A stretch of 64,000 bases of DNA from Hippasteria phrygiana (Eukaryota; Echinodermata; Asteroidea; Valvatida; Goniasteridae). Shown one piece after another: positions 1 through 55,432 of this stretch. The notes under the pieces are model-generated. The model saw only the letters and a program-made list of their open reading frames with translations. It searched no databases and had not been told where the DNA came from. Numbering within the stretch: the first letter of the stretch is position 1; every line of letters starts with the position of its first letter. The translations under genes were made by a program, and so were the position numbers. The stretch covers positions 372,001 through 436,000 of the forward strand of contig JAZGUH010000722.1 of assembly GCA_037893225.1 (NCBI GenBank), written 5' to 3'.

Positions 1-91
1 TGTTATTTCATTGAAGCGAAAAACTTGATGACATGCCTCTACTTTTGAAATTAATATTTGTTTTCTTGCAAAAATTATCAAATTGACACAG

Positions 92-246
92 GTGTTCGAG
101 GCGCAGTTGCCACTGCTGTCATTATCAGTGTATCGAGTATATTGCTGGTTGTTTTGGTCGTGATATGTGCTGCCAGATTCAAGATAAACCGTAGTGCACC
201 AGTGAACGAGCGTGGTACTTTGCCAGCGAATGACACTGTAGAGCTG
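92..246 (+). CDS. RTK A transmembrane exon
   Basis: Exon between an acceptor at 90-91 and a GTAAGT donor at 247. It enters in phase 1 and leaves in phase 0. It encodes a hydrophobic helix ([20 protein letters not shown]) followed by the stop-transfer residues RFK. The corresponding exon of RTK B, 31327-31481, has the same length. Confidence 0.85.
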
Positions 247-11530: not shown

Positions 11531-14274
11531 TCAGACTAATGACGTTGTTTCATGAGAATCTGTTGCAGCCGAGTCGACATTTTCCGGCTGAATCACGTCT
11601 ACCTCTTTGTTGGAATCCGACGGGCCACCTCTTTTCGTACGACTCATTTGCATTTTTTCCTTAAGTGCCTCTATGTTGACAATAACAAGATTACCTTCAA
11701 GGTTTGGCATGACTTGTGGATCTGACAAGTTGTCTTCAAACGTATTCAACAAACTTAGAGGTACTTCGTCCTTTGCATCACGGCCTGAAATATGAAAGCT
11801 TTTGACACTGCTGAAGTGTTTTAAGCTGTCTGCAAGGAACCCAACAAATGTCTCCGCAGGGGAGCCGTGAAGGAGATAGAGCGTCTCCAATGTTGCCCAT
11901 GGTGACCATTTCTTTTTCTTCTCCATTTCTGCGAAGACGTGGTCAAACCCATCTTTTGTCACTCCGTAAAGAGACAACCGGAGATCAGTAAGTGCCTGGC
12001 AAGCAGGCATCGACCTTGCTACTGCCTCGAAAGCATCGTCATCAAACTGTTTGTTCAGACGGAGATCGAGCTTCTTTAACTTCTTTAACCGTCCTAACTC
12101 AGCACCCAAGATACAGAGATTCTTTGAACTTAGAATCGTGCCCACGAGAACAAGACTTTCAAGCTCTTTTAGATGAGGCAGGCTTTGAGCCAATTCTCGT
12201 GCTGCACCCGATGAGTGACATTCACCAGACTGTGACTCAATGAGCTCCTGCAGACCCAAAGACTGGACTGTACAGAGGACACTGATATCTGACTGATCGA
12301 CAGGAAACTGAGGCATGTCTTTGTTATCTGACTCGACTCTCTCTCGCAACTCTTTCAATGTGGAAGCGTTGAGACTGGTTTCGTTGGCTTCACCTGAACC
12401 ATTGCTCTTCTGAACAATGGATGTGGAATACTCAAGGTATTCTTGGAGCTCGTCCCAACCATGCTGACCGATACGAAACAAGTCGATCGATTTCAATTTC
12501 AAACTTGTCGCATGTTTTAGAAAATACGCCAAAAGCATGAGTTTGTGGCTAGAAATGCCAGTCAAACGGACTTCCCTTGCACTGAAGAGACTGCCAAATG
12601 TATCAGTTAACGCATCTTTGCAACTGCCTTCGAAATTGACTTCCAGACAAAGCTCAACCAATTTCTGAAACCGCAGCACATCATGAAGGTTTCTGGGATC
12701 TTTTTCTTTCTGTGCTGTGGCTATTGGTAGTAGATATTTAAATGTATGACGGGCACCAGCCTTATTCCTGCTGGCAAATACGAATGCATTTGCCAATTTC
12801 AAGATATCCATCTTCATTTCATTGTTTATACATGCATCGATCAATAAACGCGCGCCTTCTTTATCTTCTCCGGACTTATAAATATAGATACCAGCACATA
12901 CATCTTCAAGTATTTCCAAAACGAAGTACACGTTTTCATCTCCCGCTACTTGTTTACTGTCCCGACAGGTCTGTCCATGTACACCTGTATCGTAACAAAG
13001 AAGCCCCATTCGAATAGCGACATCGAAGACTTCCTCCCCGTTCTCAGAAGAGTCAACAAAGTCCTTTTTACGATAGGAAATCGGATCTCTGCTGATTTGG
13101 CAGATTTTATGTAAGACAACTTTGCCAAGGATTTTCAGTATTTCAATTTGGTTGTCAGAAAATGTTCCCCGATATAGAGAATGTTCCGTTTCTGCGACTG
13201 CGACCTTCCAAGCACTGCTCACATAGTTGATACGTTTAAACATGTCCTGTATCAACAGGAATAACACTTTGCCCAATGTATACTTGATTTTGAAATCTTC
13301 TCGTGACAAACTGCAGAGAACTGCTAGGAAAAGTGGGAGACGTGTGATTTCAGAACTCAGAATGCCGGAATTCAAATAATCTTTGAGTTTCTGTTCTTCT
13401 GATCTGGTGTTTAATCTCTGAAACGTGTCTTCACTGACAGCTTGTGGTGATCCTTCAGTGCTCATAGATGCACCTTGAGTGTTAGTACTTTGCTGTACTT
13501 CTTTAGTGCTGTCAGAGCTTTTTTGTGCCTTTTGAGGGTTGGAACGTTTTGGTAGTTTTTCAAGCACTCTGCGCACGTACTGATGAGCATTTTTTGGCGT
13601 AAAACCAGTAACTGTAACATGACGCAAATTATATTCCTTGAGCACATACTCTTCCAGCTGCGCATATCTGGTGGTCATGACTACTTGGGATTCATCAAGA
13701 CCTTGGTTTTTTATAACCTTCATGGCATCTTTGAAATCGCCTTGATCCTTACAATTATCAACAAGAATGGCTACAGCGTTAGGGTGGGTGGAGCAATAAT
13801 CATTGATGTATTTTGGCAATATTTGTGTATCTTTTGGAAGCATGTGTTGGACGACAGCCTCGCCAAGACTCTTAGCTGTAATGAGGACCTCTGCCGGCAA
13901 AACAAACACTAGCTTTTCCTTACCAAACACTGCACCAGCCCTTTGATTGTACCAATCGTTTACCATTTTGTACAGAAATGTAGTCTTACCGCAACCCGCT
14001 CTGCCCTCAACAAAAACATGATTACTGCAAAACTGCGAAACTCCATCATGAAATAGTTGAGATGCTGAGTTCAATATATATCGAACTGTTCTACCTGCAA
14101 TACGTACGTTAACAAAGAACTCTAACTGGGTGTACAAGTCATCAATTTTTACGTACGCGTAGTCTTCGTCTTCAAGCGTGGCCAAAGGTGTGATTGGAAG
14201 TTTCCCTATCTTGTCTTCCACGAACTGTTTTATTTCTGCCATGAACGCCTCAACATTCAATACTGGAACAGTTT
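11531..14274 (-). CDS. Ig-NACHT A exon 7: NACHT NTPase and LRR-like C-terminus
   Basis: One 2744-base exon. Walker A is GRAGCGKTT (about residues 624-632 of the full protein); the Walker B-like strand is AILVDNCKD (about 702-710), with a single aspartate instead of the usual D-G-x-D-E; the sensor-1-like strand is VVMTTR. The winged-helix region (ITRLPLFLAVLC) follows a serine/threonine-rich spacer. C-terminal leucine repeats include LKELESLVLVG, LKKLKKLDLRLN and ALTDLRLSL. The protein ends in TSLV, which fits a class I PDZ ligand. There is no methionine start near the 5' end; the exon opens at an acceptor (14275-14276), so it is not a separate intracellular gene. Confidence 0.9.
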
Positions 14275-17200
14275 CTAATAAAACAGAAAAGTAGAAACAA
14301 AGTTTCTGAGAAACGACAAGAAATGTTCATTGCAATATGAAGAAGCGCAAAATATAAACATCCACTACGATTATGGAAATCAAGGCGCTTCAGGTACAAT
14401 ATTACGCCCGTTCATCTGGCCCATCAATCGTTCCGTATGCTGCACTGTATGATAACAATTTGCACTGGGTTAAACAAAACCCTTACACGCCCACACCTGC
14501 ACCCATTTAAAGAAGGAAGCAATTTGTTCAAAGTGTCTTGCTCAAGGACACAGGCACCATGACCCCTGTTCGACTGGAATCCACAATCTGCAGACTCATC
14601 ACCAAGATCGTGAGTCCGGTGCACTATACCACGAGGCCGTGAATCTTCAAATCTCAAACATATTGAGAATTCAGTTAGGTTAAAACAAATGAACATCATA
14701 GACCTTTATATCCGTAGTGGCCATCCTCTTTGTTAGCCTTGGATAGGCTCGGGCAAACCGTTTGTGTTTAGATTAATACAGAATTTGACTGAACAAAATA
14801 TATCTCAAAGACGGCCGCTATTCATAAACTGTATTCCATTTACCTTCCATCTCAACTCTGTCGTAGTCACTTCTTTTACTTCTTCGTTTTCGTGTTTTCA
14901 GCCTCCAGAAGATGCAAAGGAGTGTCACAAGAAGAATCAATGGCAGTATGATGCATAAAGCCACAATGAATCCGATGTTAGAATTATGTGGTTCAGCTAC
15001 AAAGTAAATACAAGTAAAGCTGCTTGAATATCAGTATTGCATGGGAGGTCCTCATTACCAATTTGTGCTAAAGGGTCATTACGTGATGTATAATGCCGAA
15101 TCTTGCCAGGAAAAGGGCAAAATCTAAACGATTCAGGTTCTGAAAATGTTGAATCTTCTCCTGAAGCATCATTTTGTTTGGCGCTTTAGGTATATATCAC
15201 CAAAACAATAATGCATACATCTTTCAGTACGCCTACTTGGTTTATGCTAACATTCACATGATTTGGTTTAGCACAAACAACGTTTTTAGAAGAGATTTTA
15301 CTTAATAATCTTCTCTCCCTAAATTTAACAGTGAAACGTCCAGACAAATCGGCCACTATTGCCCGGGTCTTAAACCTAAAGCAATCAAAACTTACCCTCT
15401 ACAACCACGTCTACGTATGATCTGTGAACCACGTCATCTAAGGGGAAGACGTGACACCAGTATCTGACGTCAGTATCTTGGGAGCAATTGATCAGTAGAA
15501 GGGAACCTTCTGAGGAAATGTCAAGGCAGCCATTGTCGTCCGGATCAGACATCGTCTTGGAACCATCTGGTAGATTCACTGTGCCAATCACAGTGGTTAT
15601 GCTAGCCTCAGTAGCGCCATAGGACCAGATCAAGGTTGCTTTGGTCGTCCAAGTGTTTCGTAATCCATGCAGGCAGGGAAGAGTAAATTTTCTGTTGAAA
15701 CCGAAAGTCACCTGGTCACCTGCCGTAGCGTTTCCGCCATCCAGAGGAAATTGTTTTCCTGTATGTTATGAGAGAAATTCCCTTAGAATTACACGTACAG
15801 CCAAAACATTCATATATACACATCCATCAGATGGGAAGGTTTCCGAACCTCTCTTATCCCCAAAAATCTTGGTTTGTTAAATTAATTTTGTAATAAAATC
15901 TATGCTAAATTAAATATTTTTCTTTCAATTTTCGAATAGTTGAGTATATTTTAATGCCATTTAAGTTTATCTCAATTTTGTGTAGGTGGTGTGGTTAGGT
16001 ATATCAATCGCTCCATTGCGCAGTAATGTCGATCACCTAAACCATCAGTGCCTGATATACTTATAAAACAAGCAACTGGAGAACAGTTCCACGCAGTCAT
16101 CTATGTCTCTATTCTTGTATTTTTTGCGAAATAGGAATTTTTGGTAAATATATGGAATAACTCGAATGCGCACCTACCTATAACACGAACTGTGATCAGA
16201 TCAAATGTAGCTCCAGAGCACCTATAGTTCCCAGCATTATCAGTATTCACAGAGGTGAAAACTAGACTGAAGTCACTGCCGAGATCGTACGTAGGGTCAG
16301 CATCAATGATGTTGGTCGACAGGCTGTAATTAACGACCAGGTGACTTGTGGTGTTGATTTTAAGCCACTGCATCTCACAGATTGGGTAACCGGGCGTCCA
16401 ACTTGTGCAGGGAAGTTTCTGCTGAAAATCTTTCCGAAGATAGAAAGATGATGCAGAAGCCTTCACAGCAGTTTCACTAGAGGGGTTTGTATCTGCAACA
16501 TTTAGAAACAATCCAGCACATCAAGATAGCTAAATTCACATAAAAAGAAATAGCAAGCCTGAATTTTTTGGAATTGAATAAAAATGATATCGACTCGTTT
16601 TTCCACTTTGCGTGGCGCTGGGCCGAATTCGTAACTTTGGTAACTATAAGCAAAATAATATACAGCCCGGCAGCCCAACAGACAGACAGACACATTAACA
16701 CAAAAGCATAGCATACTGCAATTAGTGGAGTATCTATGGGGGACCCCCCGTGCACCCCCCCCCCCCCCCCAGAACTAATCCACACCAACTTTTTCTGGTG
16801 CGTTTTAAGGTCCTAAAACACATTTGGGATGTTAACAGTGAAAAAAAACCGATGCTCTGGCGATATCCAAGATGGCAGCCAATATGGCCGCCAAAAATGG
16901 TCAAAATTGGGAAAAGTCATATATCAGCCAAAAAATATGATAAAAACATTTTTTTTAATGTTAGATATATGTTTTTGACCCTTACAAATTCATTTCTGGT
17001 ATTCTTGTTTTGCTATCAGGCTTCAAATTCAAGATGGCGGCCTATATGGCCATCAAAAGTGGTCAAATTTAAGAAAAATTGTATATTTCAGCAAAAAATT
17101 ATGATAAAGGCATAAATTAAATGATTTGATATGTTTTTACCCTTACAAAATACTTTCAAGCATTCTTTTATTTTGCTACCATTCACCAAATTCAAAATGG

Positions 17201-20200
17201 CAGCCAATATGGATGCCAAAAAGTGTCAAATTTGAGAAAAGTCATATATTGGCAAAAAAGGTAAGTGATGAGTGTAAGTAAAAGTTGACATTATGTAGGC
17301 CTATTTGAAAGTCATTTTAAACTCATATCTGGCTTTTTCTGATTTGTAAACATGTTTAAAATTCAAGATTGTGGTCAAAATTACCGTAATAAATTAAAAG
17401 AATTACAAAATACATGTATCAGCAATATATTAAAATAACCATGAACAGTCACTTGATGTTTTGAAAGAGAAAATAATACATATGTATACCAATTCTTTAA
17501 TATCTGGAGGTATCTCATAAAAAGGCTTAAGTAAAACCTATAGACATTTTATATTGCGATTGTCCACCGCTTTAACACACACTTGGTAACACTACTGTTA
17601 AAGACAAAATAATATACCCATTATGTAATTTACAATTGGAGGTATCTCAAATAAAGGCAAAAGTTAAACCTATAGACATTTTATATAGCGATTGTTCACT
17701 GCTTTAACACACACTTGGTATTGTGAAAGACAAAATAATATACCTATTCTGTAATACATCTGGAGGTACCTCAAATAAAAGCAAAAGTTAAACCTATAGA
17801 CATTTTATAATTATAGTGATTGTCCAACGCTTTAACACACACTGGGTATTGTGAAAGACAAAATAATAAACCCATTCTGTAATACATCTGGAGTTATCTC
17901 AAATAAAGGCGAAACTTAAACCTATACACATTTTATATAGCGACTGTCCACCGCTTTCACACTTGATATTTTGAAAGAGGAAAAGCATTGCAATATCTAC
18001 ATTTCATATAGAGATTGTCTACTGCTTTGAATATGACATAGCATTAGTCACTGTCATAGTCGTCAAGACCTGAACAGTCAGATTTATTTACATCATCTCC
18101 ATCGATATCGACATCTTCGTCATCTGACGTTTCCTCTTCTGTGACTTCAGCCAGGATGTCTTCAAGACGGGATTTGCAAGACGGGATGGCAAGACAGGTC
18201 CCTCTGACCACACTGGCTCAATGGAGTCTCCACATCAGGTCCAGCCATTCTCTGTAGGGGGTGGAATTTCCGCATCAGTCCCACCAGATCCACCCTTGCA
18301 TCCTTGGACAGGCAGATTTCCACCACCTGTGACCAGCTAGGTTCTAGTGTCTCCGGAGCTGATTTCGGGAAGATTCCGCAGCTCACCCTTTCCTCCAGCA
18401 ACCACGCCAAATCAAGAAACTCCGGAGTATCACAAAGCGCAAGACCAAGACCAGTCCCAGCCCTGCTTCCACCCATGTAATGGGATCACCTATATCCCCA
18501 CTCCCACAGCCCCGACCCTGGCCATGGGATTTTCTATATCCCTCTACGCCCCCAACCCTCCAGCCGAATGAGATGCTCTGTACCCTCCAACCTGCACCAC
18601 ACCAAACCCCACCTTCGCTCTCAAGAATCCTTCATCACCCGGCACATAGTCAACCTGAGCCAGCGTACCCTGTCCGCGGAAGAGACCTTGTCCCTTGTCC
18701 CTTGTCCCTCGATCATCCCCTGTAGAAGAGATCATCCAACACACCGAACCCACCCTCTGCCATCTTGACAAGCATGCTGCCGATGAGATCCGTCTGCAGA
18801 TCAATCAAGCCCTCCGGAAACACAAACCAGCCAAGCCTAACATCTCCAGACAAGACCGGTCAGCCATCACATCACTGCACCAAGACAAGTCCATCCACAT
18901 TCTTCGAGAGGACAAGGGTAATGCCACTGTCGACAGGGCCGAGTATGACCGCAAGGTGGCAGACATCCTCAACTCGGACTGCCGTGAAATCCGGAAAGAC
19001 CCTACACCATCCATCGAGAGGAGGCTGCAAGGCAAGCGTCTTTCTCTCCAGCGTTCCGGCAACATCTCTCAGTTTGAGCAGACTGCCATCGCCACAGCAG
19101 ATCGCCATCGCCACAGCAGATCACAGACCTAGGGTTTGGCTCCTGTACATTGACACCTTTATCATCTGGCAGCATGGAAGTATAACCTTTGGCTTTTCTT
19201 GGAACACCTCAACGGGCTTCACAGCAGCATCCAGTTCACCATGGAACAAGAAAGAGATGGCAACATCTCATTTCTTGATGTTGAAGTGTCCAGAAAGCGG
19301 GACGGCAGTCTTACCCGCAGTGTCTACCGCAAACCCACCCAAACCGACAGATACCTCCACAGCAGTTCCTTCCATCACCCCAAGATCAAGACTTCCATCA
19401 ACTGGGCCCTCGTCCACAGGGCATACAACGTCTGCGACAAGGAACATCAAACCCAGGAACTCCATCACGTCACCACAGCACTGCAACGCAACGGATACAA
19501 GCCCAGCCAAGTCAAGACACAAGACCCCAGATCCACCCCCGGCCAAAGGGTCGCCTGTACCCAAAGCCAACTAGTTAGGGTCCCTAGTCCTGTTACTCTC
19601 CCCTACTTAGGCAGTACTTCACATCAAATCCAGCGCATCCTCCACAAGCATGGGATTCGAGTCTACCATACAGCCCCCATAAAGATCCAGAATCTGCTGA
19701 CTTCGCACAAGGACCGGTCAGACCCAGAGCGCAGGCCAGGAGTGTACAAGATCCCCTGCCAATGTGGCAAAGTGTACATCGGCGAGACTGGCAGGGACCT
19801 CCCCACCAGACTCAATGAACACAAAGCCCATGGCAGAAAAGGAGACTATGAGAAATCATCCATAGTCAAACACTCCCACACCGAAGACCATCAGATCAAC
19901 TGGAGCCAGGCCGAACTCATCACCAGCATCGAACGCTGGTACCCCTGCCGCATCAGAGAAGCCATTGAAATCTTCAAGCACAACACGGTTCCCCAAGACA
20001 TCGGTTTCTCCATCAGCGACATCTGGGGCCCCATCCTTACCTCCCAGTCCAATGGGTCTCCTATACCCCAGGATAACTTACATGTAGTTATCCAGCCTAT
20101 GGGTCCCATATACCCTTGGCAACCTCCCCCTTCGCACCCTTCCTTCAGAATGACACGCCTCAATGATCATCCAGCATCCCCAAGCCCTGCAGGAGTTTGC

Positions 20201-23078
20201 ATCCTTCTCACGCTTAATCGCTTCTAGACACCATATAAGCCCGCTTCACCGTTGGAAGCTCTCAGTCTCCTGACGACAGGCAGAGCATACTGTCCGTAAC
20301 GTTGATGAGTTCCCCCCGGTTCTTTTCAGAACACAAACTCACAAAAGAGATTTAATACATGGTTCTACCGCAAACCAGTTACCTTAGGTTTAAGTTTGCC
20401 TCTATTTGAGATAGCTCCAGATGTATTACAGAATGGGTTTATTATTTTGTCTTTCACAATGCCAAGAGTGTGTTAAAGCAGTGGACAATCGCTATATAAA
20501 ATGTCAAATACTTTTGCCCTTATTTGAGATACCTCCAGATGTAAATTACATGAGTTTGTATATGCCGGCAATCGTGGACCTAGGACAAAAGAATTCAGGC
20601 GTAGACAAAGGGGTCCACGTTTGACCTAACGTCCACGATTGAAAATCGTGTACAAAACCAATGGGAGGCCTTCCGAAAAAGTTAGAGTATAAACAAAAGA
20701 GGAACAATGGGAGGTCCACGATTGCACCCGTTTACATGACTGCATGGGTACAAAATGTATAGTAATTTGTCTTACAGTACCAAGTGAGTGTGTGTGTGTT
20801 AAAGCGGTTGACAATCGCTATATAAAATGTCTATAGATTTACTTCAGCCTTTTTGTGAGATACCTCCAGATATTAAAGAATTGGTATATGTATTATTTTC
20901 TCTTTCACAATTGCAAGTGAGTGCTCATGGTTATTTTAATATATTGCTGATACATGTATTTTGTATTTCTTTGGTCATTTTGACCGCAATCTTGAATTTG
21001 GTACATGATAGCAAAATAAAAGAATACTTGAAAGTATTTTGCAAGGGTAAAAACATATCAAATCATTTCATTCATGCCATTATCATAATTTGTGGCTGAT
21101 AAATACGATTTTTCTCAAATTTGACCACTTTTGCTGGCCATATTGGCCGCCATCTTGAATTTGAAGCATGATAGCAAAACGAGAATACCAGAAATGAATT
21201 TGTAAGGGTCAAAAACATATATCTAACAATTTTATTTGTGCTTTTATCATATTTTTTGGCTGATATATGACTTTTCCCAATTTTGACCATTTTTGGCGGC
21301 CATATTGGCCGCCATCTTGGATATCGCCAGAGCATCGGGTTTTTTTCACTGTTAACATCCCAAATGTGTTTAAGGACCTTAAAACACACCAGAAAAGGTT
21401 GGTGTGGATTAGTTCTGGGGGGGGGGGGGGTGCACGGGGGGTCCCCCATAGATACTCAACTAAATGTACAGTCGTATCGTAACCTTTTGATATTCGGATA
21501 TCGGTGTAGCAATTCCTCAGTGTACCATCCTGGTGGAATACATGACACCAGAATCTCTGCGTATCTTGTACGTCATTCAGGGAGTTGACTGTAAGCGAAG
21601 CGTCGCTACCAATGCTGTAACCAGCGCCATGTTGGATCTGCAGAACAGTACCATCAGAGAAACGCGCACCAATGATGTCTGTATCTGCAGTGACGCCCTC
21701 TCCCGTTGACCAATACACTACGGGAATTGGTGCGTCTGGTGTCTGTGGCGCGCACTGACACGGTAGCGTCTGTCTAATTCCTCGTCTCCAAAAGGCAGTA
21801 GACGAAGTAACACTGCTGCTTGCTGGAAACGAAGTTCCTGTAGTAATTAATAAGACGCTTATCTGTATTAAGGTCCCGGATAGGTTGCTCCAACGATATT
21901 GCATGTCCTCAAAGCTCATAGAATATTTGCCTTCTCTCCCAAGTCACTTACTTTTCTTTTTGGAACTCATTTACAAAATTTAGAACATTTGAAGATTCAT
22001 TGTTTCGAAATTAACATATGAATACTGTGAAACGTTTTCAACCAATCAGAGATACATTGCCAAGGCCTTACCTATAACTTGAATATCAACCGCTTCAACT
22101 CGTATCGTCGAGGTTAGACTCGGTACCACTCTGCACAAATACCTCCCTTCATCAGTTTCCTCGACACCCTTAATGACGAGGCTGAAATCTGACGAAAACG
22201 AATATCTATCGCTGGATGGATTGTCTCCATTGTCTCCAACACGGCTTATTAGCTGTACGGTGAAATGGTCGTCTATGTTGGATCCTTTGTACCAGTACAC
22301 ACCCTCAACTGTCTCTTCTGGCCTGAATGCTGGGCAGGGAAGTCTGTGCCAAAGTCTCTCCTGAACGGTACTGGGCAGGCCAAAGACATCCCTGATAGAT
22401 ATTGCTGGAAGAAAAAAGTAAAAACTCACAAAAGGGGAGGTACATTGAGTTACAGTGTTGCCCCTTTGGATAATTTTTAATGAAACTTTATGATGAAATG
22501 GTGAAATTAGTTTAGTTATTTTAAGCTTGGAAAGTACAATAATGTGGTCCAGTGAAGGAGACAGCATTTCAACGTTTTAAAAATATTGTAAATTGATGAG
22601 CAAACAATCAGCGGCGTATCCGGGGGGCGATGGGGCGCACGACCCCATAAGATATCATTTGTCCCCCCCCCCCCATTGTAAATTTCGCAAACGGAGAAAT
22701 TAGTATTAGGCCCTATTAAGACAAATACTGTGAGCACCCCCCCCCCACTCGCCCCCACTGTAACATCCACCCCCCCCCCCCCCACTCGCCCCCACTAGAG
22801 ACAGCCATGGCTACACCACCGCAAACAATAATTACCAAATTTACCTCAACTTCTGATCGATATTATCATTTACGACTAAAGGGTCAGTCAGTAGACTAGT
22901 CAGTGATTAGTACCAAGATGTTCACATAAAAAGGGATGCAACGTGATCGTAAAGTTCCTGAGCTTGCACGCTGTATTCAGAATGAGCAAATCTTACCATG
23001 GCCAGGTGGGCAGATATTTGGGTCGGCAGCATAAAGTCCCATTGCGATGAGAAGAATCACTGCACACGTCAAACCCAT
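11531..23078 (-). CDS. Ig-NACHT A: signal peptide, four Ig-like domains, TM helix, NACHT and LRR-like receptor
   Basis: Seven exons read on the minus strand: 22997-23078, 22072-22404, 21484-21837, 16178-16492, 15396-15758, 14844-14996, 11531-14274. Every junction is phase 1 and the coding sum is 4344 bases, an exact frame (1447 residues). Layout by residue: signal 1 to about 27, Ig1 to 138, Ig2 to 256, Ig3 to 361, Ig4 to 482, TM about 491-513, basic stop-transfer (KTRKRRSKR), NACHT from about 600, LRR-like segment near the C-terminus. Predicted role: surface recognition by Ig domains coupled to a cytoplasmic NLR-type NTPase. The four Ig exons have cysteine pairs and D-x-G-x-Y-x-C or WCHV signatures. 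The Ig2 donor is weak (AAAG/GTTACG) and a 4.7 kb element sits in the following intron. No death, CARD or FISNA domain was recognised. The architecture is seen; the function is inferred. Confidence 0.82.
14424..14645 (-). mobile_element. tRNA-derived SINE with V-SINE-type core (copy A)
   Basis: On the minus strand an A-box-like TGGTATAGTGCACC is followed by a decayed B box (GATTCCAGTCGA) and then GTGTCCTTGAGCAAGACACTT, the complement of the AAGTGTCTTGCTCAAGGACAC type core known from V-SINEs. The orthologous insertion is at 43690-43905, so it predates the duplication. It lies between the TM and NACHT exons. Confidence 0.6.
14844..14996 (-). CDS. Ig-NACHT A exon 6: transmembrane helix and basic juxtamembrane strip
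   Basis: Phase 1-1 exon with the helix IVALCIILPLILLVTLLCIF, then WRLKTRKRRSKR, a strong stop-transfer signal that places the NACHT part in the cytosol. It ends GAA G/GTAAAT and joins in frame to the NACHT exon, giving SDYDRVEMEE before the NACHT part. Confidence 0.82.
15396..15758 (-). CDS. Ig-NACHT A exon 5: Ig-like domain 4
   Basis: Phase 1-1 exon, 363 bases as in copy B. TLPCLHG, LIWSYG and VRYWCHVFPL give the Ig core. The WCHVF pattern repeats that of Ig2, suggesting these two domains arose by internal duplication. Confidence 0.8.
16178..16492 (-). CDS. Ig-NACHT A exon 4: Ig-like domain 3
   Basis: Phase 1-1 exon with LPCTSW, EMQWLK and NAGNYRCSG. It is six bases shorter than the copy B exon, the difference lying beside the second cysteine. 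Confidence 0.8.
17420..18040. repeat. Subterminal tandem repeat, about 125 bp unit
   Basis: About 4.5 units, each with GGAGGTATCTCAAATAAAGG, TTAAACCTATAGACATTTTA and GCTTTAACACACACTTGG. Inverted partial units lie at about 20385-20540 and 20757-20880 on the other arm. Confidence 0.75.
18044..18476 (-). pseudogene. Broken minus-strand coding remnant with acidic tail
   Basis: An open stretch at 18162-18476 (start MGGSRAGTGLG) is followed, after a frame change, by an acidic stretch (EEETSDDEDVDIDGDD) ending at a stop near 18044. The composition looks coding, but no family was recognised. It may be a decayed protein of the inverted-repeat element, or captured host sequence. Confidence 0.3.
18640..20227 (+). 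pseudogene. Penelope-like element: broken reverse transcriptase plus GIY-YIG endonuclease
   Basis: Penelope-like retroelements encode a telomerase-related RT and a GIY-YIG nuclease. The N-terminal part (about 18640-19060: IVNLSQRTLSAEET, HILREDKGNATVD) is joined directly to the RT active-site strand (19140: LYIDTFIIW), so the central RT is deleted. The usual YxDD has lost one aspartate. A frameshift follows before 19199. The remaining 19199-20227 frame (342 codons) covers RT motifs after the active site (NISFLDVEVSR) and the GIY-YIG domain (VYKIPCQCGKVYIGETGRDL, with the expected R, H and E positions downstream). Not functional as an RT. It lies in the core of the 4.7 kb inverted-arm element. 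Confidence 0.82.
20258..20340 (+). ncRNA. Hammerhead-ribozyme-like motif and 3' tail of the Penelope-like element
   Basis: CTGACGA (20270-20276) and GTAAC (20296-20300) flank a short stem (GACAG/CTGTC), the layout of a hammerhead core. The second box would be GAAAC in an active copy, so this one is probably dead. The downstream hairpin GGTTCTTTTCAGAACA is shared with the tails at 4005-4105 and 35255-35355. Hammerheads are known in Penelope-like elements. Confidence 0.45.
20568..20725. mobile_element. 158 bp MITE, copy 2
   Basis: Same 12 bp inverted ends as the copy at 9309-9465. It is nested inside the right arm of the 4.7 kb element, so it is younger than that element. Confidence 0.75.
21484..21837 (-). 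CDS. Ig-NACHT A exon 3: Ig-like domain 2
   Basis: Phase 1-1 exon with LPCQC, VVYWSTG and RFWCHVF. The copy B exon has identical length and is highly similar. The donor reads AAAG/GTTACG in A and GCAG/GTAATG in B, so splicing in A may be weaker. Confidence 0.8.
22072..22404 (-). CDS. Ig-NACHT A exon 2: Ig-like domain 1
   Basis: Symmetric phase 1-1 exon. LPCPAF and YLCRVV hold the cysteine pair, VYWYKG the core tryptophan, and ETDEGRYLC the D-x-G-x-Y-x-C motif of V/I-set domains. About two thirds identical by eye to the copy B domain, with differences grouped in inter-strand loops. Confidence 0.82.
22610..22812. repeat. C-run-rich insertion in Ig-NACHT A intron 1
   Basis: Begins GCGGCGTATCCGGGGGGCG and contains three C runs, two followed by CACTCGCCCCCACT. 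Similar GGCGGATC / GATCCGCCCCTG edges occur at 5940-6213 and near 25890-25905, suggesting one element family. Not seen in intron 1 of Ig-NACHT B. Confidence 0.45.
22997..23078 (-). CDS. Ig-NACHT A exon 1: start and signal peptide
   Basis: ATG at 23078, hydrophobic core AVILLIAMGLYAA, then DPNICPPGH and a GTAAGA donor in phase 1. Exon 1 of Ig-NACHT B has the same length (82 bases) but a very different sequence. Confidence 0.75.
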
Positions 23079-40598: not shown

Positions 40599-43540
40599 TC
40601 ACACTAATAGCGCTGTTTCATGAGAATCTGCTGTAGCCGAGTCGACATTTTCCGGCTGAATCACGTTTACTTCTTTGTTAGAATCCGACGGGCCACCTCT
40701 TTTCGTACGACTCATTTGCATTCTTTCCTTCAGTGCCTCCATGTTGACAATAACAAGATTACCTTCAAGGTTTGGCATGACTTGTGGATCTGACAAGTAG
40801 TCTTCAAACTTATCCAACAAACTTAGAGGTACTTCGTCCTTTGCATCACGGCCTGAAATGTGAAAGCTTTTGACACTGCTGAAGTGTTTTAAGCTGTCTG
40901 CAAGGAACCCAACAAATGTCTCCGCAGGGGAGCCGTGAAGAAAATAGAGCGTCTCCAATGTTGCCCATGGTGACCCTTTCTTTTTCTTCTCCATTTCTGC
41001 GAAGACGTGGTCAAACCCATCTTTTGTCACTCCGTAAAGAGACAACCGGAGATCAGTAAGTGCCTGACAAGCAGGAAGCGACCCTGCTACTGCCTTGAAA
41101 GCATCGTCATCAAACTGGTTGTTCAGACGGAGATCGAGCTTCTTTAACTTCTTAAACCGTCCTAACTCAGCACCCAAGATACAGAGATTCTTTGAACTTA
41201 GAATCGTGCCCACGAGAACGAGACTTTGAAGCTTTTTCAGATGAGACAGGTTTTGAGCCAACTCTCGCGCTGCGCTCGATGAGTGACATTCACCAGACTG
41301 TGACTCAATGAGCTCCTGCAGACCTAAAGACTGGACTGTACGGATGACACTGATATCTGACTGATCGGCAGGAAATTGTGGCATGTCTTCGTTATCTGAC
41401 TCGACTCTCTCTCGCAAATCTTTCAATGTGAGACTGGTTTCGTTGGATTCATCTGAACCATTGCTCTTCTGAACAATGGGTGTGAAATACTCAAGGTATT
41501 CTTGGAGCTCGTCCCAACCACGCTGACCGATACGAAACAACTCGATCGATTTCAATTTCAAACTTTTCGCATGTTGCAGAAAATACGCCAAAAGCATGAG
41601 TTTGTGGCTCGAAATGCCGATCAAACGGACTTCCCTTGCACTGAAGAGACTGCCAAATGTATCAGTCAACGCATCTTCGCAACTGCCTTCGAAATTGACT
41701 TCCAGACAAAGCTCAACCAATTTCTGAAACCGCAGCACATCATGAAGGTTTCTGGGATCCTTTTCTTTCTCTGCTGTGGCTATTGGTAGTAGATATTTGA
41801 ATGTATTACGGGCACCAGCCTTATTCCTGCTGGCAAATATGAATGCATTTGCTAATTTCAAGATATCCATCTTCATTTCAGGTTTTATACATGCATCGAT
41901 CAATAAACGCGCGCCTTCTTTATCTTCTCCTGACTTATAAATATAGATACCAGCACATACATCTTCAAGTATTTCCAAAACGAAGTGCACGTTTTCATCT
42001 CCCGGTACTTGTTTACTGTCCCGACAGGTCTGTCGGCCATGTACACCTGTATCGCAACAAAGAAGCCCCATTCGAATGGCGACATCGAAGACTTTCTCCC
42101 CGTTCTCAGAAGAGTCAACAAAGTCTCTTTTACGATAGGAAATCGGATCTCTGCTGATCTGGCAGATTTTAGGTAGGACAACTTTGCCAAGGGTTTCCAG
42201 TATTTCAATTTGATGTTCAGAAAATTGTCCCCCATATTCGGAACCTTTCGTTTTTGCGATTGCGACCTTCCAAGCACTGCTCACATAGTTGATACGTTTG
42301 AACATGTCCTGTATCAACAGGAATAACATTTTGCCCAATGTATACTTGATTTTGAAATCTTCTCGTGACAAACTGCAGAGAACTCTTAGGAAAAGTGGGA
42401 GACGTGTGATTTCGGAACTCAGAATGCCGGAATTCAAATAATCGTTGAGTTTCTGTTGTTCTGATTGGCTGCTCGTTTGCAAATCATCATGGTTTCTCTT
42501 CGCTGGTTCTGTACTGTCAGGGTCATGTACAGTATCGTCATTAGTCGATGTTTTTAGTGTTTCTTGAGTATCTGTGATTTGTGATTCAACTTCTTTCTTG
42601 TTGGCGCTCTCTTGTGGTTTAGTTTCATTTTTGATGTCTTCAACAGTGTCAGCACTTTGCAAGGCTTCTCTGGTGTTTAATCTCTGAAATGTGTCTTCAT
42701 TGACAGCTTGTGATGATCCTTCAGTGCTCATAGATGCATCTTGGGTGTTAGTACTTTGCTGTACTTCTTTAGTGCTGTCAGAGCTTTTTTGTGCCTTTTT
42801 GGGGTTGGAACGTTTTGGTAGTTTTTCAAGCACCCTGCGCACGTACTGACGAGCATTTTCTGGCGTAAAACCAGTAATTATAACACGACGCAAACTATAT
42901 TCCTTGAACACATACTCTTCCAGCTGCGCATATCTGGTGGTCATGACTACTTGGGATTCATCAAGACCTTGGTTTTTTATAACCTTCATGGCATCTTTGA
43001 AATCGCCTTGATCCTTACAATTATCAACAAGAATGGCTACAGCGTTAGGGTGGGTGGAGCAATAGTCATTGATGTATTTTGGCAATATTTGTGTATCATT
43101 TGGAAGCATGTGTTGGACGACAGCCTCGCCAAGACTCTTAGCTGTAATGAGGACCTCTGCCGGCAAAACAAACACTAGCTTTTCCTTACCAAACACTGCA
43201 CCAGCCCTTTGATTGTACCAATCGTTTACCATTTTGTACAGAAATGTAGTCTTACCGCAACCCGCTCTGCCCTCAACAAAAACATGATTACTGCAAAACT
43301 GCGAAACTCCATCATGAAATAGTTGAGATGCTGAGTTCAATATATATCGAACTGTTCTACCTGCAATACGTACGTTAACAAAGAACTCTAACTGGGTGTA
43401 CAAGTCATCAATTTTTACGTACGCGTAGTCTTCGTCTTCAAGCGTGGCCAAAGGTGTGATTGGAAGTTTCCCTATCTTGTCTTCCACGAACTGTTTTATT
43501 TCTGCCATGAACGCCTCAACATTCAATACTGGAACAGTTT
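40599..43540 (-). CDS. Ig-NACHT B exon 7: NACHT NTPase and LRR-like C-terminus
   Basis: 2942-base exon. Walker A GRAGCGKTT, Walker B-like AILVDNCKD and VVMTTR are unchanged from A. Between the NACHT core and the winged-helix region B has an added stretch (from EALQSADTVED to NHDDLQTSS) rich in acidic, Thr and Gln residues, encoded at about 42465-42675. Leucine-rich C-terminal repeats are conserved. Opens at an acceptor (43541-43542), not a start codon. Confidence 0.9.
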
Positions 43541-46500
43541 CTAATAAAACAGAAAAGTAGAAACAAAGTTTCTGAGAAACGACAAGAAATGTTCATTGCA
43601 ATATGAAGAAGCGCAAAATATAAACATCCACTACGATTATGGAAATCAAGGCGCTTCAGGTACAATATTACGCCCGTTCATCAGGCCCATCAATCGTTCC
43701 GTATGCTGCACTGCATGTTAATAATTTGCACTGGGCTAAACAAAACCTATGCACGTCAACACCTGCACCCATTCAAAGAAGGAAGCAATTTGTTCAAAGT
43801 GTCTTGCTCAAGGGCACAGGCACCATGACCCCTGTTGGACTGGAATCCACAATGTGTAGACTCACCAAGATCGTGAGTCCAGTGCACTATACCACGAGGC
43901 CGTGAATCTTCAAATCTCAAACATATTGAGAATTCAGCTAGCTTAAAACAAATGAACATCATAGACCTTAATATTTGTAGCGGCCATCCGAGATGATGTC
44001 TTTGTTAGCCTTGGATAGGCTCGGGCAAACCGTTTGTGTTTAGATTAATACAGCATTTGACTGACAAAAATATATCTCAAAGACGGTCGCTAAAACTGTA
44101 TTATGTTTACCTTCCATCTCAACTTTGTTGTAGTCACTTCTTTTACTTCTTCGTTTTCGTTTTTTTAGCCTCCAGAAGATGCAAAGGAGTGTCACAAGGA
44201 GAATCAGTGGCAGTATGATTCCTAAAGCCACGACGAGTCCGATGATAGAAATATAAGGTTCAGCTACAAAGTAAATACAAGCAAAAGGTCTTGAATATCA
44301 CAGAGTATAAATCGCTGGCAGGAAAGGGGTAATATTTAAACATTTAACTTCTGGAGATGTTGAATCTTCTACCGGAACATTTCCAAGCCAATGCATCAAA
44401 AGTGATGAGTGTCGGCATCATTTTCTATATTTCGAAGAAGAAAAACAAGGTTTCCACTTTTTGGTTTACATCACCAAACAATAATGCATATATACATCCA
44501 TCAGTAGGCCTGCATGATTTACGCTAACTTTCACATGATTTGGTTTAGCATAAACAATTTTTGAGAGATTTTACTTGATACCTCGCCCCTGGGTTTAACA
44601 GCGAAACGTCAAGACAAATCGGACACTATTGCCCGGGTCTTAAACCTAAAACAATAAAAGCTTACCCTCTACAACCACGTCCACGTATGACCTGTGAACC
44701 ACGTCATCTAAGGGGAAGACGTGACACCAGTATCTGACATCAGTATCTTGGGAGCAATTCAACAGTAGAAGGGAACCTTCTGAGGAAATGTCAAGGCAGC
44801 CATTGTCGTCCGGATTAGACATCGTCTTGGAACCATCTTGTAGATTCACTGTGCCAATCACAGTGGTTATGCTAGCCTCGGTAGCGCCATAGGACCAGAT
44901 CAAGGTTGCTTTGGTCGTCCAAGTGTTTCGTAATCCAGACGGGCAGGGAAGAGTAAATTTTCTGTTGAGACCAAAAGTCACTTTGTCACCTGTTGTAGCG
45001 TTTCCGCCATCCAGTGGAAATTCTTTCCCTGTATTGTGTTAAGAGAAATTCCCTTAGAATTACACGTAAAGCCAAAAGTGGTTCATAATACGCATCGATC
45101 TGGGGGAAATTTCAATTGCTTAAGCACAAAATGTACCAAAACAACCTTGCCAAAACTCCATGTGATGTATTATTGCTTGTGACTGGTATATAGCTGTTGT
45201 TTACTGAGTACAACAATCACCCAGAGTTTTGACTGTTGACTCGATTTTACTAAGCAAGGTTTTTGTGCTGAAGCAAGTTTGTGCTTAAATGTAGTGTACA
45301 TAATTGGTCATTGTTGCAATTTTCAGAAATGGGCGGATTTGGGGGTTAGTATTTTGTAGGAAATATCGTTCCACTGACCTGTTCAAAGTTTTGCGTTGTT
45401 GGATGCCGAAAAATACGAGAAAATCGGCGCTTGTTTTTAACCGTCGGCCTTGACTAAAGGCTACAAGGGTAGTTTTCCAACGACTTCCAGCTGGAAATCG
45501 TTGGAAAACGTTATATCATTCTATTTTTACTGAAATATTAGGAAATACCTTACTAGACTAAGTTAATAGTAGTCTCAATCATCCTGTGAAATAATGGCAC
45601 CAGATGCGCTGTCGAAAAGTGGAAATATATATATTTCCACTTTTCTTGACAACGACAATGATTTTACAGGATGATTGAGACTACTATTAACTTACAGTCT
45701 AGTAAGGTATTTCGTAATAATTCAGTAAAAATATTGGAGGATTACCATTCATGTACACTACCTTTAAGCAACTCTATGATATTGGCCCATGGTGAAATGG
45801 CTTCAGAACCTCCCGTATACCCAAGAATCTTCGTAAGTTTTTAAATTAATTCCCCGATATAGTTTCTGCTAGATTAAATTATTTTTAATCTGGAATAGGT
45901 TTGTTTAATGGTCATCGGAGTTCTCAATTCAGTGTAGATGGTCTTCTCATAATTGTTCTCATGGATCTATTCACTCGATCCAACGTGCAGCAGTGTAAAT
46001 CTTCTAAACCATCAGTGTCTGACGTAATTATACAACCAGTAAAACCGGAGAAATGTTTAAAACACAGTCATTCGTGTCTTTATTCATGTCTTATCGCAGC
46101 TGGAATTTTGTGTAAATATATGGATTAATAGATTTGATTGAGTACCTACCTATTACACGAACTGTGATGAGATCAGATGTAGCTCCAGGGCTAGAGCACA
46201 TGTAGTTCCCAGCATGGCCAGCATTCACAGATTTGAAAACTAGACCAAGGTCAGTGCCGAGATCGTACGTAGGGTCAGCATCAACGATGTTGGTTGACAG
46301 GTTGTAGTTAAGGACCTGCTGAATTGTGGTGTCGACTTTAAGCCACTGCATCTCACAGGTTGGGTAACCGGGCGTCCAGGTCGTGCAGGGAAGTTCTTGT
46401 TGAAAATCTTCTTGAAGATAGAAAGATGATGCAGAAGCCTTCAATGCGGGTTCACTTGGGCGGTCTGCATCTGCAATAATTTTGAAACAATTCACATGGG

Positions 46501-48814
46501 GTAGAATATTGAGAAAGCCTGAAGTGTTTAAAAGTTTTAATATGATGGTGAATGACAATGGTACGGATGTTGTGGTTCACCTTGCGTGGCGACTACTGTA
46601 CCGAATTTCATGGTTCTGCTTCAAACGAAGTATCGCAGCCAAGTAGACCTACAGCAGAAAATTCGGGGCAAACGGTTAGCGAATTTCGCGCGTCAGCAAC
46701 GAATTCAGGCTCGTGTACATGCACACATATCGTAGGGATAATCGTGCTTACAGAGTAAGCACAGTATAAGCGTTCATGAAGCTATGTACGGTAAGTGAAG
46801 ATTGATGACTCTTAGCGTGGTTAGCACAGCCATGAAATTACATCCTTGTTTTCCTTAGTCGTCCCACATTCGCTATCACAAAACTGAGAATTTGTCTATG
46901 AGCAGCCTTTTCTGTTAAAATGTAACAAATTTCCAAAGCAGCTCTACGGCCATTCCATTACCTGCTGATATCTGGATATCGGTGTAGCAGTTGCTAAGAG
47001 TGTCATCAGGGTGGAATACATGACACCAGAATCTCTGAGCATCTTGTACATCATTCAGGGAGTTGACTGTAAGTGAAGCGTCGCTACCAATGCTGTAATC
47101 AGCGCCATGTTGGATCTGCAAGACAGTACCATCAGAGAATCGCGCGCCAATGATGTCTGTATCTGCAGTGACGCCCTTCCCCGTTGACCAATACACTACG
47201 GGTAATGGTGCGTCTGGTGTCTGGGGCGCGCACTGACACGGTAGCGTCTGTCTGCGTCCTCGCTGGAAACTGGCAGAAGTCGATGCGTCACCAGTGCTAG
47301 CTGGAAACGACTTACCTGTAGTAATTAATAAGAAGCCTAGCGATATTAAGGCCACATAATTACTAACCAAATGTTCCGGTGATGTCCTACATGGAATTCC
47401 ATTTTCCTCACCTTAACTAAATCAGAGTTTGTGTTATTTGGAACTCATTTTACATTGCAACAGTTAATGTTTTATTTATTTAATTATTACTAACATAAGT
47501 ATTCCACCTAAATGTAGAATAATCCACGCATCCTTACCAATTATTTGAATATCAATTGCCTGAACTCGTTCGAGTGTTTCAGTTGGTACGACTCTGCACA
47601 GGTACCTCCCTTCATCGGTTTCCTCGATACCCTCAATGACGAGGCTGGAATCAGACGAAAATGAGTATCTGTTGCCTTTTGGATCGTCTGCCACACTGTC
47701 AACCCGGCTTATCAATAGCATTGTGGAGGTGTCGTCTATCTTGGGGCCTTTGTACCAGTCAACACCATCCTGCGTCTCGCCTGGCCGGAATGCTGGGCAG
47801 GGAATGCGATGCCAGAGTCTTTCCTGAACGTTGTTAGACACACCGAAGACATCTTTGATAGTCGTTGCTGAAAGAGAAAAGAAATAATAATAATTTCACT
47901 ATGATGACGGTAGGTGATATTTCTATTAGTTTAGAATGAAGCATGTGGGTATAAAGGTGTATACTGATAGACAAAAAGCTATTCGCGTGTAAAACAAAGC
48001 ATGTTTTAATTGAGAAACCCAGCATGTTAAAAATGTTATGGTCTTTGTGTGATCGAACCATTTTACATGCATAAAAGCAACCATAGTATTATCCAATCAA
48101 GACTTGATACGGTAGCAGATAAATACGCCTATTTTCCTAACTACAATAAATATAATTACGCATGGTACCATCATTCAAACACTGTTCATACAAATTGTGT
48201 TTTAGCCGGGTTATCTTTTTTACTGAAGCCGATCGGGGTATAGGGTGATCGTCTTCAGGAGAAGACGAACGAAAACGCAGTGTGATACCTTAATTACATT
48301 AAGGTATCACAGCGCCCTCAATCACAATTACTTCGGAAATCCCCAATTAATTTTAACACCACAGTTGTGCAGTGCCTTTGGTTGGCGCCCAATCCCCATC
48401 CCGGAATGTTTTAGGTATAACATTCAGGGCAAAATAAAATATTTTTAAAACACGCTTTGTCATTTTCAGCAGGTTTACTCTAATATAGCTGCCCCATTTT
48501 CTTCGAGACGGACATTTCTGACATTTCTGAGTTTCCAAATCGCATAAAAACATGCAATATGGACTGAAGGACATTCCCTCCTCTCTCTTCACATTTTATG
48601 GCATTCTTTGGTGAACAAACCCAAATCGAAACACAAACTACCCCCCTAATAAATAAGTTAAATAAATGAATCAATAAATAATTAAGTATTTGCCAAATAC
48701 GCAATATCTTGATTTGGAATGACATATCTTACCGAAGCCTATCGGACATATTGTATATTCTCCAGCACACTGCCCCACTATTAAGACGACCATCAGGACC
48801 GAATTCATCGCCAT
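40599..48814 (-). CDS. Ig-NACHT B: second Ig-TM-NACHT-LRR receptor
   Basis: Seven exons on the minus strand: 48733-48814, 47538-47867, 46962-47315, 46150-46470, 44666-45028, 44111-44263, 40599-43540. All junctions are phase 1; the total is 4545 bases, an exact frame of 1514 residues. The domain order equals copy A. Differences: signal peptide and Ig1 strongly diverged; Ig3 two codons longer; an extra acidic, threonine/glutamine-rich stretch of about 65 residues between the NACHT core and the winged-helix region; C-terminus ALLV instead of TSLV. Donors are stronger than in A after Ig2 (GTAATG). The V-SINE-type insertion between the TM and NACHT exons is shared. An independent second copy with a conserved frame supports the chimeric gene being real and expressed as protein. 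Confidence 0.84.
43690..43905 (-). mobile_element. tRNA-derived SINE with V-SINE-type core (copy B)
   Basis: Orthologous to 14424-14645; core GTGCCCTTGAGCAAGACACTT on the minus strand. Slightly better preserved than copy A in the core, with several small indels. Confidence 0.6.
44111..44263 (-). CDS. Ig-NACHT B exon 6: transmembrane helix
   Basis: ALGIILPLILLVTLLCIFW followed by RLKKRKRRSKR. 153 bases, phase 1-1, donor GAAG/GTAAAC. Confidence 0.82.
44666..45028 (-). CDS. Ig-NACHT B exon 5: Ig-like domain 4
   Basis: TLPCPSG, LIWSYG and VRYWCHVFPL. Nearly identical to copy A. Confidence 0.82.
45320..45760 (-). repeat. Reversed, folded-back copy of the RTK intron repeat in Ig-NACHT B
   Basis: 45320-45495 is the reverse complement of the repeat at 34590-34830. 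45523-45629 and 45630-45731 form a near-perfect hairpin centred on GGAAATATATATATTTCC. Copy A lacks this block in the Ig4-Ig3 intron. Confidence 0.65.
46150..46470 (-). CDS. Ig-NACHT B exon 4: Ig-like domain 3
   Basis: LPCTTW, EMQWLK and HAGNYMCSS. Phase 1-1; two codons longer than in A. Confidence 0.82.
46962..47315 (-). CDS. Ig-NACHT B exon 3: Ig-like domain 2
   Basis: LPCQC, VVYWSTG and RFWCHVF. Same length as copy A and highly similar. Donor GCAG/GTAATG. Confidence 0.82.
47538..47867 (-). CDS. Ig-NACHT B exon 2: Ig-like domain 1
   Basis: IPCPAF, VDWYKG and ETDEGRYLCRVV mark the Ig core. One codon shorter than in A. Framework strands match A; loops do not. Confidence 0.82.
48733..48814 (-). 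CDS. Ig-NACHT B exon 1: start and signal peptide
   Basis: ATG at 48814, hydrophobic core VLMVVLIVG, then QCAGEYTICPIGF and donor GTAAGA, phase 1. Shares only the I-C-P motif and the length with copy A. Confidence 0.72.
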
Positions 48815-50159: not shown

Positions 50160-50955
50160 CCCGATAGTCCGAAGGTTCGATTGTCCGAAGGTTTATTGAT
50201 CCGAAGGTTCGATATTCAGAACGTACAAGTTCACCATAAGAGGGGGTTCGTTAGTCCGAAAATAAAATAGGGTTCGTTAATCCGAACTTTTGATGCGATA
50301 GTCAGAATGTCCATTGGTCCGAAGGGCCGACAATCCGAAGGTTAATTTATCCGAAGGTTCGGTAGTCCGAATTTAGAATAAGGTTAATTAGTCCAAAGGT
50401 TCAAAAGTCCGAAACGAAAATAGGGTTCAATTAGTCCGAAGGTTCATTATTCCGAAAGCACACAATAGTCCAAATTGACAATAAGGTCCGATAGTCCAAA
50501 TTGACAATAAGGTTCGATATTCCGAATAGGCAATATAGTCCGAATCGGCAACAATTAGCTTTGTCAATTCGGACTATCGAACCTTATTGCCAATTCGGAC
50601 TATCGAACCTTATTGCCAATTCGGACTATCGAACCCTATCGTCTATTCAGAATGTCGAACCTGATCGTCCATTCGGACTATCGAACCTTATCGTCGATTC
50701 GGACTTTCGCACCCAGCTATCGTCTATTCGGACTATCGAACCTTCGGATTATTTAACCTTATTCTCTTTTCGGACTAGTGGGCCCTTCGGACTATAGAAC
50801 CTTCGGACTAACGAACCTTCGGACTATAACCCTTCGGACTAAAGAGCCTTCGGACTATTTAACCTTATTCTCTATTCGGACTAATGGTAGGAGTTGCAAT
50901 TATCTCCCCTTAACGAGGAATTCCCAGTAAGCGCGAGTCATTAGCTCGCGTTGAT

Positions 50956-50994
<39 letters not shown>

Positions 50995-51125
50995 ATGGGC
51001 CCTTTGGACTATCGAACCTTCGGACTATTGAACCTTCGGACTATCGAACCTTCAGACTAACGAACTTTCGGACTAATAACCCTTCGGACTAAAGAACCTT
51101 CGGACTGTCGAACCTTTGGACAATC
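50160..51125. repeat. Palindromic minisatellite, copy B
   Basis: Same two-way array of GGTTCGATAGTCCGAA / TTCGGACTATCGAACC as at 23935-24845, turning near 50550-50570. Interrupted by an 18S rRNA fragment at 50888-50994. Confidence 0.85.
50888..50994 (+). pseudogene. 18S rRNA fragment inserted in the minisatellite
   Basis: Contains the universal 3' 18S strings AACGAGGAATTCCCAGTAAG, GTCCCTGCCCTTTGTACACA and CCGCCCGTCGCTACT. About 107 bp only, so not a functional rRNA. ACTAATGG stands on both sides (50880-50887 and 50991-50998); copy A has a single ACTAATGG at this point. Confidence 0.92.
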
Positions 51126-53612: not shown

Positions 53613-53824
53613 GCCGCGCAGACGTGTTTTTTTGAGCTCCGGAGTAAGTTGTAAATTTTGTAGCTTTTAGACCTTGTATGGTCACCGTTTTTATATCTAA
53701 GTATTTTGTATTGTTCATAGACTCGGCAAGACCAGTCCTAACCCGTTATTTTCCTGTAATTTGTCTGTAATTTGCCGTTACATTTTGTACATTTTCGTGT
53801 GGTTTTCTGCTCTGCCTGGCCGCC

Positions 53825-55420: not shown

Positions 55421-55432
55421 TTACATATCATC

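Follow-up and report, generated by a model that had tools for sequence, protein, structure and literature searches.

Sea-star genes joining an Ig ectodomain, a transmembrane helix and NACHT-LRR: probable membrane receptors, apparently derived from a Death-NACHT gene

Vertebrate NLRs such as NOD2, NLRC4 and NLRP3 are cytosolic proteins with CARD or PYD effectors. In the sea star Hippasteria phrygiana, a stretch of 64,000 nucleotides (C722:372001-436000, contig JAZGUH010000722.1, within a 944 Mb assembly; hereafter the window) contains two tandem minus-strand genes, copy A (11531-23078) and copy B (40599-48814), with another arrangement: a signal peptide (SP), four V-set-type Ig domains, one transmembrane (TM) helix and NACHT-LRR. 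How did an NLR core come to stand behind a putative surface ectodomain, and is it likely to work there as an NLR does?

Re-reading of the exons confirmed that, as the sequence-only reading had claimed, this order is encoded in one exact frame in both copies. The single open phase-1 frame measures 4344 nt in copy A and 4545 nt in copy B, with no stop across 1447 and 1514 residues, respectively (Table 1). In the spliced, translated protein, V-set and NACHT profiles of Pfam score above cut-off, the NACHT match (PF05729; 6.1e-11, 42.9 bits for a cut-off of 26.7) covering residues 620-772 of copy A. Up to E 1, Ig families alone precede NACHT, no N-terminal effector domain (CARD, PYD, Death or BIR) is present, and no CARD, PYD or Death match was found in the translated protein. 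Each protein has one strong TM segment; in any other window outside the signal peptide, the score is at most 1.64. The signal peptide and TM argue against a cytosolic location, and their combination predicts a protein with the Ig domains outside and NACHT inside.

Table 1. Features of copies A and B (positions in the window) and Ig clusters of the same type elsewhere in the genome (contig given)
Feature	Position	Strand	Remark
Copy A exon 1, start codon and signal peptide	22997..23078	minus	begins MGLTCAVILLIAMGLYA..., donor GTAAGATT
Copy A exon 2, Ig1	22072..22404	minus	best V-set stretch, residues 48-126
Copy A exon 3, Ig2	21484..21837	minus	donor GTTACG weak
Copy A exon 4, Ig3	16178..16492	minus	
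Copy A exon 5, Ig4	15396..15758	minus	
Copy A exon 6, TM helix and basic juxtamembrane strip	14844..14996	minus	TM helix, residues 492-512
Copy A juxtamembrane YDRV (YxxPhi)	14854..14865	minus	residues 527-530
Copy A exon 7, NACHT-LRR cytoplasmic region	11531..14274	minus	includes stop codon
Copy A Walker A, GRAGCGKTT	13979..14005	minus	residues 624-632
Copy A winged-helix motif, FVLEILEDVC	12896..12925	minus	without the histidine of FxHxxxQE
Copy A LRR solenoid	11633..12220	minus	predicted fold; exon-protein residues about 685-880
Copy B exon 1, signal peptide	48733..48814	minus	
Copy B exon 2, Ig1	47538..47867	minus	
Copy B exon 3, Ig2	46962..47315	minus	
Copy B exon 4, Ig3	46150..46470	minus	
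Copy B exon 5, Ig4	44666..45028	minus	
Copy B exon 6, TM helix	44111..44263	minus	TM helix, residues 493-513; YNKV motif
Copy B exon 7, NACHT-LRR	40599..43540	minus	
Ig1-Ig4 clusters without matching NACHT exon, on C722	C722:1.8-4.8k, 80.6-82.8k, 183.6-185.8k, 120.7-126.6k, 257.0-272.8k		
Ig1-Ig4 clusters without matching NACHT exon, elsewhere	C179:1404.6-1408.3k; C7:2368.8-2374.7k, 2406.3-2409.5k, 2463.2-2466.1k		

A genome-wide search gave 66 NACHT matches, six of which belong to the Ig-TM-NACHT family: loci D, C, A and B on C722, and loci E and F on C122. At all six, matches to Ig1-Ig4 are found in order together with the TM exon (6/6 for each), and a phase-1 TM donor is followed by an open NACHT exon starting from a phase-1 acceptor. 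The signal peptide was matched by search in A and C and read in B; the search of the genome found no match to it at D, E and F. Family-ectodomain matches lie on C722, C122, C179, C7 and C453, and none of the remaining 60 NACHT matches shares a contig with such a match (both statements among the 81 of 116 candidates scored); this co-location test covers family-type ectodomains, and fusions to unrelated Ig domains would escape it. Several Ig exons, part of which have stops within the match, also lie at a seventh place (C722:34-44 kb), followed by a NACHT-like exon; the latter aligns with copy A exon residues 36-110, 165-239 and 377-864 and gives no PF05729 match.

Could the locus instead be a pair of adjacent genes, one for an Ig-TM receptor and one for NACHT-LRR, the latter having a promoter and start codon of its own? 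One in-frame ATG does occur 79 residues before Walker A in A, B and C. This candidate start codon is, however, not conserved: there is none before Walker A in D and E, and in F it stands only 39 residues before. Moreover, the phase-1 acceptor opens the NACHT exon at 6/6 loci, and public gene models from three sea stars join Ig, TM and NACHT in one protein. A split into two genes was rejected on these grounds and appears very improbable.

We give just as little credence to the idea that the window genes are an assembly artefact or decayed tandem copies. Signs of decay do exist on C722, where a truncated copy with a stop (284791-287492, i.e. 284.8-287.5k) consists of a signal peptide, Ig1, Ig2 and an Ig3 piece adjoining the end of a NACHT exon, where locus D has a stop codon in its Ig2 exon, and where copy A combines a large insertion in intron 3 with a weak Ig2 donor. 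However, A and B are free of stops over their whole length, and homologues exist in three named species. Nor do A and B resemble one allele assembled twice, as their divergence is a mosaic: 0.3% in the first 206 codons of the NACHT exon (13655-14272 in A, about 42921-43538 in B), 27% in Ig1, with a still higher value in the signal-peptide exon. An explanation by two alleles that the assembly kept as separate genes was rejected given this range of divergence along the gene and the presence on one contig of three tandem units of receptor tyrosine kinase-like and Ig-NACHT genes. The mosaic suggests that gene conversion between A and B is likely. Between distant copies, dN of the NACHT exon is 0.48-0.53 for a dS of 1.3-1.8, the latter near saturation. 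The close pairs A-B and A-C give a dN/dS of about 0.58, that is weak constraint (0.038/0.066 for A-B), and the whole CDS of A-B gives dN 0.072 and dS 0.166. The long stop-free frames and the dN relative to dS in distant pairs argue for selection on the family.

Several other elements were observed around these genes. Genes that we take, from motifs such as HRDLAARN, to be receptor tyrosine kinase-like lie on the plus strand at window 1-5000 and about 30175-36400 and, by contig position, at C722 343-350k, 371-377k and 402-408k. Kinase-like and Ig-NACHT genes alternate and are convergent, forming the three tandem units. Pfam gave no match in the kinase-like gene exon 677-1252 and a C2-set Ig at window 30175-30762, in a kinase-like gene region; Ig exons 40-41% alike are also found at C122:34.4k and at C722:295k, 325k and 334k. 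The insertion in intron 3 of copy A (about 16719-21466) has inverted ends, 16719-17211 and 20976-21466, that are 92% alike; an inner plus-strand ORF (19157-20227) matches GIY-YIG (4e-5), as in Penelope-type elements. A LINE-type retroelement at 53771-59050 carries a zinc-knuckle ORF and an endonuclease/reverse-transcriptase ORF, and a second piece, at about 26549-28372, is LINE-like by eye, Pfam giving no match in 26549-27808. A repeat array includes an SSU rRNA-like fragment of about 105 bases (50886-50990), which matches SSU_rRNA_eukarya at 5.5e-22 when 50800-51080 is searched alone and gives no match in a whole-window search with fast filters. A tandem repeat with a 605-base period occupies 59856-63982. 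Elsewhere in the genome, nine Ig1-Ig4 clusters of family type are without a matching NACHT exon (Table 1), some with stops inside the match; at one of them (L048), no recognisable tail was found within 5 kb downstream of Ig4.

The layout is not restricted to H. phrygiana. Among the candidates scored, protein searches found 21 family proteins, 12 from Patiria miniata, 5 from Acanthaster planci and 4 from Asterias rubens, and 19 of the 21 carry Ig, TM and Walker A in one protein, so that the search of related species bears out the Ig-TM-NACHT order. The proteins that share Ig, TM and NACHT in a single chain are P0001-P0012, P0014, P0015 and P0017-P0021, with a Pfam NACHT score below cut-off for P0001 and with Ig1 missing or altered in the models of P0006, P0010, P0012 and P0017. 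Ectodomain identity is 54-60% in Patiria rows and 48-53% in those from Acanthaster; the A. rubens rows show 36-37% identity across about 60% of the query. P0016 (P. miniata LOC119725511) has the family ectodomain, the TM and the C-terminal region, the NACHT NTPase being absent. P0022 (P. miniata LOC119732897) has family-type Ig domains and no TM-NACHT part; its tail bears precomputed ApoL (PF05461) and PF04888 labels. An additional match outside the 21, P0013, is a distant Death-NACHT metagenome protein.

As to the origin of the family, the best non-family match of the NACHT exon in the genome is locus L015 on C93 (6.7e-31; next match 1.2e-13). The NACHT exons of copy A and L015 are 26% identical over 722 columns (BLASTP, 4e-60). 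In a midpoint-rooted NACHT tree of 44 rows, made up of all 6 own copies, 9 sea-star proteins out of the 21, P0013 and 28 of the 60 other loci, the family stands on one side of a branch (100/100) and L015 is its sister (100/99). L015 resembles the family in being the nearest NACHT, in its phase-1 entry junction and in having no winged-helix histidine. It differs by an N-terminal Death domain (PF00531, 4.3e-10) in place of SP-Ig-TM and by a usual Walker B, DGYDE. As the splice sites are read, its Death exon ends in phase 1 ahead of the NACHT exon. Since the nearest outside NACHT thus belongs to a Death-NACHT gene that is entered in the same phase, the SP-Ig-TM exons, all in phase 1, apparently replaced the Death exon; this is the simplest account, and its direction is one that we infer. 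The proposal that a surface Ig ectodomain replaces the adaptor domain gains support from L015, as best outside match, as sister in the tree and as bearer of a Death exon.

Does the NACHT core still operate as a nucleotide switch? According to the available part of PMC7583971, NLRs conserve a winged-helix motif, FxHxxxQEhxA, with a histidine that was proposed to coordinate the nucleotide. In our alignment, this histidine is found in 28 of 29 non-family NACHT rows and in none of 15 family rows (the 6 own copies and 9 of the 21 sea-star proteins), and the sole non-family row without it is the Death-NACHT gene L015. The 29 non-family rows comprise P0013 and 28 of the 60 other NACHT loci, that is the best 30 by E-value, which were cut out, less the short L019 and L021. 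Walker A is intact in the family, as in the GRAGCGKTT of copy A, so that its NACHT probably binds nucleotide. Regarding Walker B, non-family rows have DGxD in 29/29, followed by E in 27 and by D or A in the others. The family has D-x-C and then variable residues, a graded and not uniform change: DNCKD in A and B, DSCKD in C, DGCDN in D and E, and DGCNR in F; Patiria and Acanthaster rows have N, G or D as fifth residue, and both A. rubens rows of the alignment read DDCEE. The fifth residue, a glutamate, is catalytic; Glu in this position (D-x-x-x-E) occurs in 2/15 family rows vs 27/29 others. Because all 15 family rows are without the winged-helix histidine, an ordinary ADP-locked state or classical ADP/ATP switch appears unlikely; this view rests on the histidine and not on the Walker B count. 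The sequence-only reading, in which recognition would directly drive NACHT oligomerisation through the usual nucleotide switch, is doubtful for the same reason.

The region downstream of NACHT gave no LRR above cut-off in the Pfam domain search of the copy A protein. Its C-terminal leucine repeats are nevertheless an LRR on the predicted fold (AF2 model searched with Foldseek). The top matches were NOD2 and NLRC4, with NLRP3 lower in the ranking; the model is poor across the first 120 residues and whole-model TM-scores are low, 0.17-0.36. By this fold search, the window proteins share with these vertebrate NLRs a NACHT followed by helical regions and LRR, whereas their N-terminal parts differ, SP-Ig-TM in the former and CARD or PYD effectors of cytosolic proteins in the latter.

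Between TM and NACHT, the juxtamembrane strip carries a YxxPhi motif, in which a tyrosine is followed at +3 by a hydrophobic residue and which is an AP-2 sorting signal. It is found at most 28 residues after the TM in 21 of 26 sequences (6/6 own copies and 15/20 TM-bearing homologues; P0022, without this TM, was excluded), and within these 28 residues it is missing from P0002, P0003, P0010, P0011 and P0012. In 2000 shuffles of the same 26 segments, the mean was 4.8 and the maximum 13; many rows being close relatives, the 26 sequences are not independent. Read as an ITIM, the tyrosine would suit SDYDRV of A and SDYNKV of B but not the majority of Patiria rows (e.g. GDYKRL), so that YxxPhi is preferred.

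The sequence-only reading knew of no described family with this order, and here it does not hold: besides the public sea-star models, one protein of the sea cucumber Apostichopus japonicus has it and a second is reported with Ig, TM and NACHT, according to the available parts of PMC8699970 and PMC13133943. AjNLRC4 (PLoS Pathog 2021; accession MN607598 as stated in PMC11932488) is described with an Ig-like domain at 31-132, an Ig at 251-353, a TM at 483-503 and a NACHT at 600-757 (PMC8699970). As so described, it resembles copy A in its N-terminal Ig, in the places of TM (492-512 in copy A) and NACHT (620-772) and in having no CARD. Its two Ig domains coincide with the places of Ig1 and Ig3, with space for Ig2 and Ig4. 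The description differs in giving, from a domain search, two TM and no LRR; the window genes have one strong TM and likewise no LRR above cut-off in such a search, their LRR showing by predicted fold. AjNLRC4 also comes from a sea cucumber and not from a sea star, and is compared here by described layout, on which basis we infer the kinship of the window genes with it. The protein reportedly sits in the membrane, binds LPS, PGN, MAN and several bacteria through its Ig part, and dimerises and moves inside on Vibrio infection; oligomers in vitro were reported for the recombinant extracellular part (PMC8699970). It is also reported to promote actin-dependent uptake of bacteria, its NACHT binding beta-actin with a Kd of 5.87 uM (PMC8699970), and to bind caspase-1 (AjCASP-1) through the Ig part, forming a complex (PMC11932488). 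This last contact fits poorly with a purely extracellular Ig part. The second protein, AjNLR-new (PIK48001.1), likewise joins Ig, TM and NACHT and is reported at the coelomocyte surface, with NACHT outside and Ig inside per the authors (PMC13133943). This topology is opposite to the one predicted for the window genes; from the description, the first of the two predicted TM segments of AjNLR-new might be a signal peptide.

Among the papers listed (6 to 20 of up to 710 per list, from a library with few subscription papers), the Ig-NACHT literature found comprises PMC8699970, PMC13133943 and PMC11932488. The first two share authors, and the third, on MLKL, presents the AjNLRC4 work as earlier studies of its own authors, as far as their available text goes. 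In that text, no mention was found of sea-star members, an LRR, the lost histidine or descent from Death-NACHT. Putative membrane-bound NLRs of sponges (PMC12909245) share a TM domain with the window genes, while an Ig ectodomain is not mentioned for them in the available text, and the available parts of the pearl-oyster (PMC9646362) and sponge (PMC12909245) accounts present no Ig-TM-NACHT protein. No A. japonicus protein was among the matches listed in our own searches (7990, 7996 and 7990 candidates scored, sharing most words), an absence that is not evidence.

These comparisons bear on a further explanation, that of a canonical NLR tethered to the membrane, in which ligand would cluster the Ig domains and NACHT would swap ADP for ATP and build an inflammasome-like ring at the membrane. 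The intact Walker A, the Foldseek matches to NOD2, NLRC4 and, lower, NLRP3, and the acidic residues that several rows keep beyond the Walker B Asp (DNCKD, DDCEE) are in line with it, as are the reported dimerisation of AjNLRC4 on infection and its complex with AjCASP-1 (available parts of PMC8699970 and PMC11932488). However, both the winged-helix histidine and the fifth-position glutamate set the family apart from the other rows, as counted above, no CARD, PYD or Death domain matches up to E 1 in the translated protein, and the caspase contact of AjNLRC4 is reported via Ig and not NACHT (PMC11932488). We regard a canonical NLR of this kind as unlikely.

We consider it probable that the window genes encode type I receptors that arose by replacement of a Death exon and act through Ig-mediated clustering and uptake, NACHT-LRR being a scaffold and not a classical nucleotide switch. 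In a Death-NACHT gene, SP-Ig-TM exons would have taken over from the Death exon, the phase of the junction being the same, and the resulting gene would have spread by tandem duplication. The product would be a membrane immune receptor with four V-set-type Ig domains outside, a TM helix, YxxPhi, and NACHT-LRR inside. Its Ig domains would most likely bind microbial surfaces, and the bound receptor would cluster. On the model of AjNLRC4, YxxPhi and the NACHT-LRR scaffold may then lead to internalisation or phagocytosis, NACHT probably holding nucleotide without classical ADP/ATP switching. It is because of the AjNLRC4 reports and of YxxPhi that an endocytic or phagocytic role can be proposed for the window genes.

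More tentatively, and with the odds rather against it, sea stars may possess a multigene system in which one Ig1-Ig4 type is set on varied insides: NACHT-LRR, an LRR tail without NACHT, perhaps others. In the NACHT version, clustering from outside would have replaced the nucleotide switch, the histidine being lost first (already in the Death-NACHT relative) and the Walker B ending drifting later, and an ATP-holding scaffold would link recognition of microbes to their uptake; the Ig-kinase genes, paired and convergent, would be part of this module too. In any case, a receptor layout found in print, as far as the available text of the above papers goes, from one sea cucumber alone is extended to a multigene family of a sea star, and to three named species too. 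To this layout are added a suggested inner LRR and a testable origin, the exchange of a Death exon for Ig-TM exons at a phase-1 junction. The missing histidine raises the further question of whether an NLR core may be functional without a nucleotide switch if clustering comes from outside.
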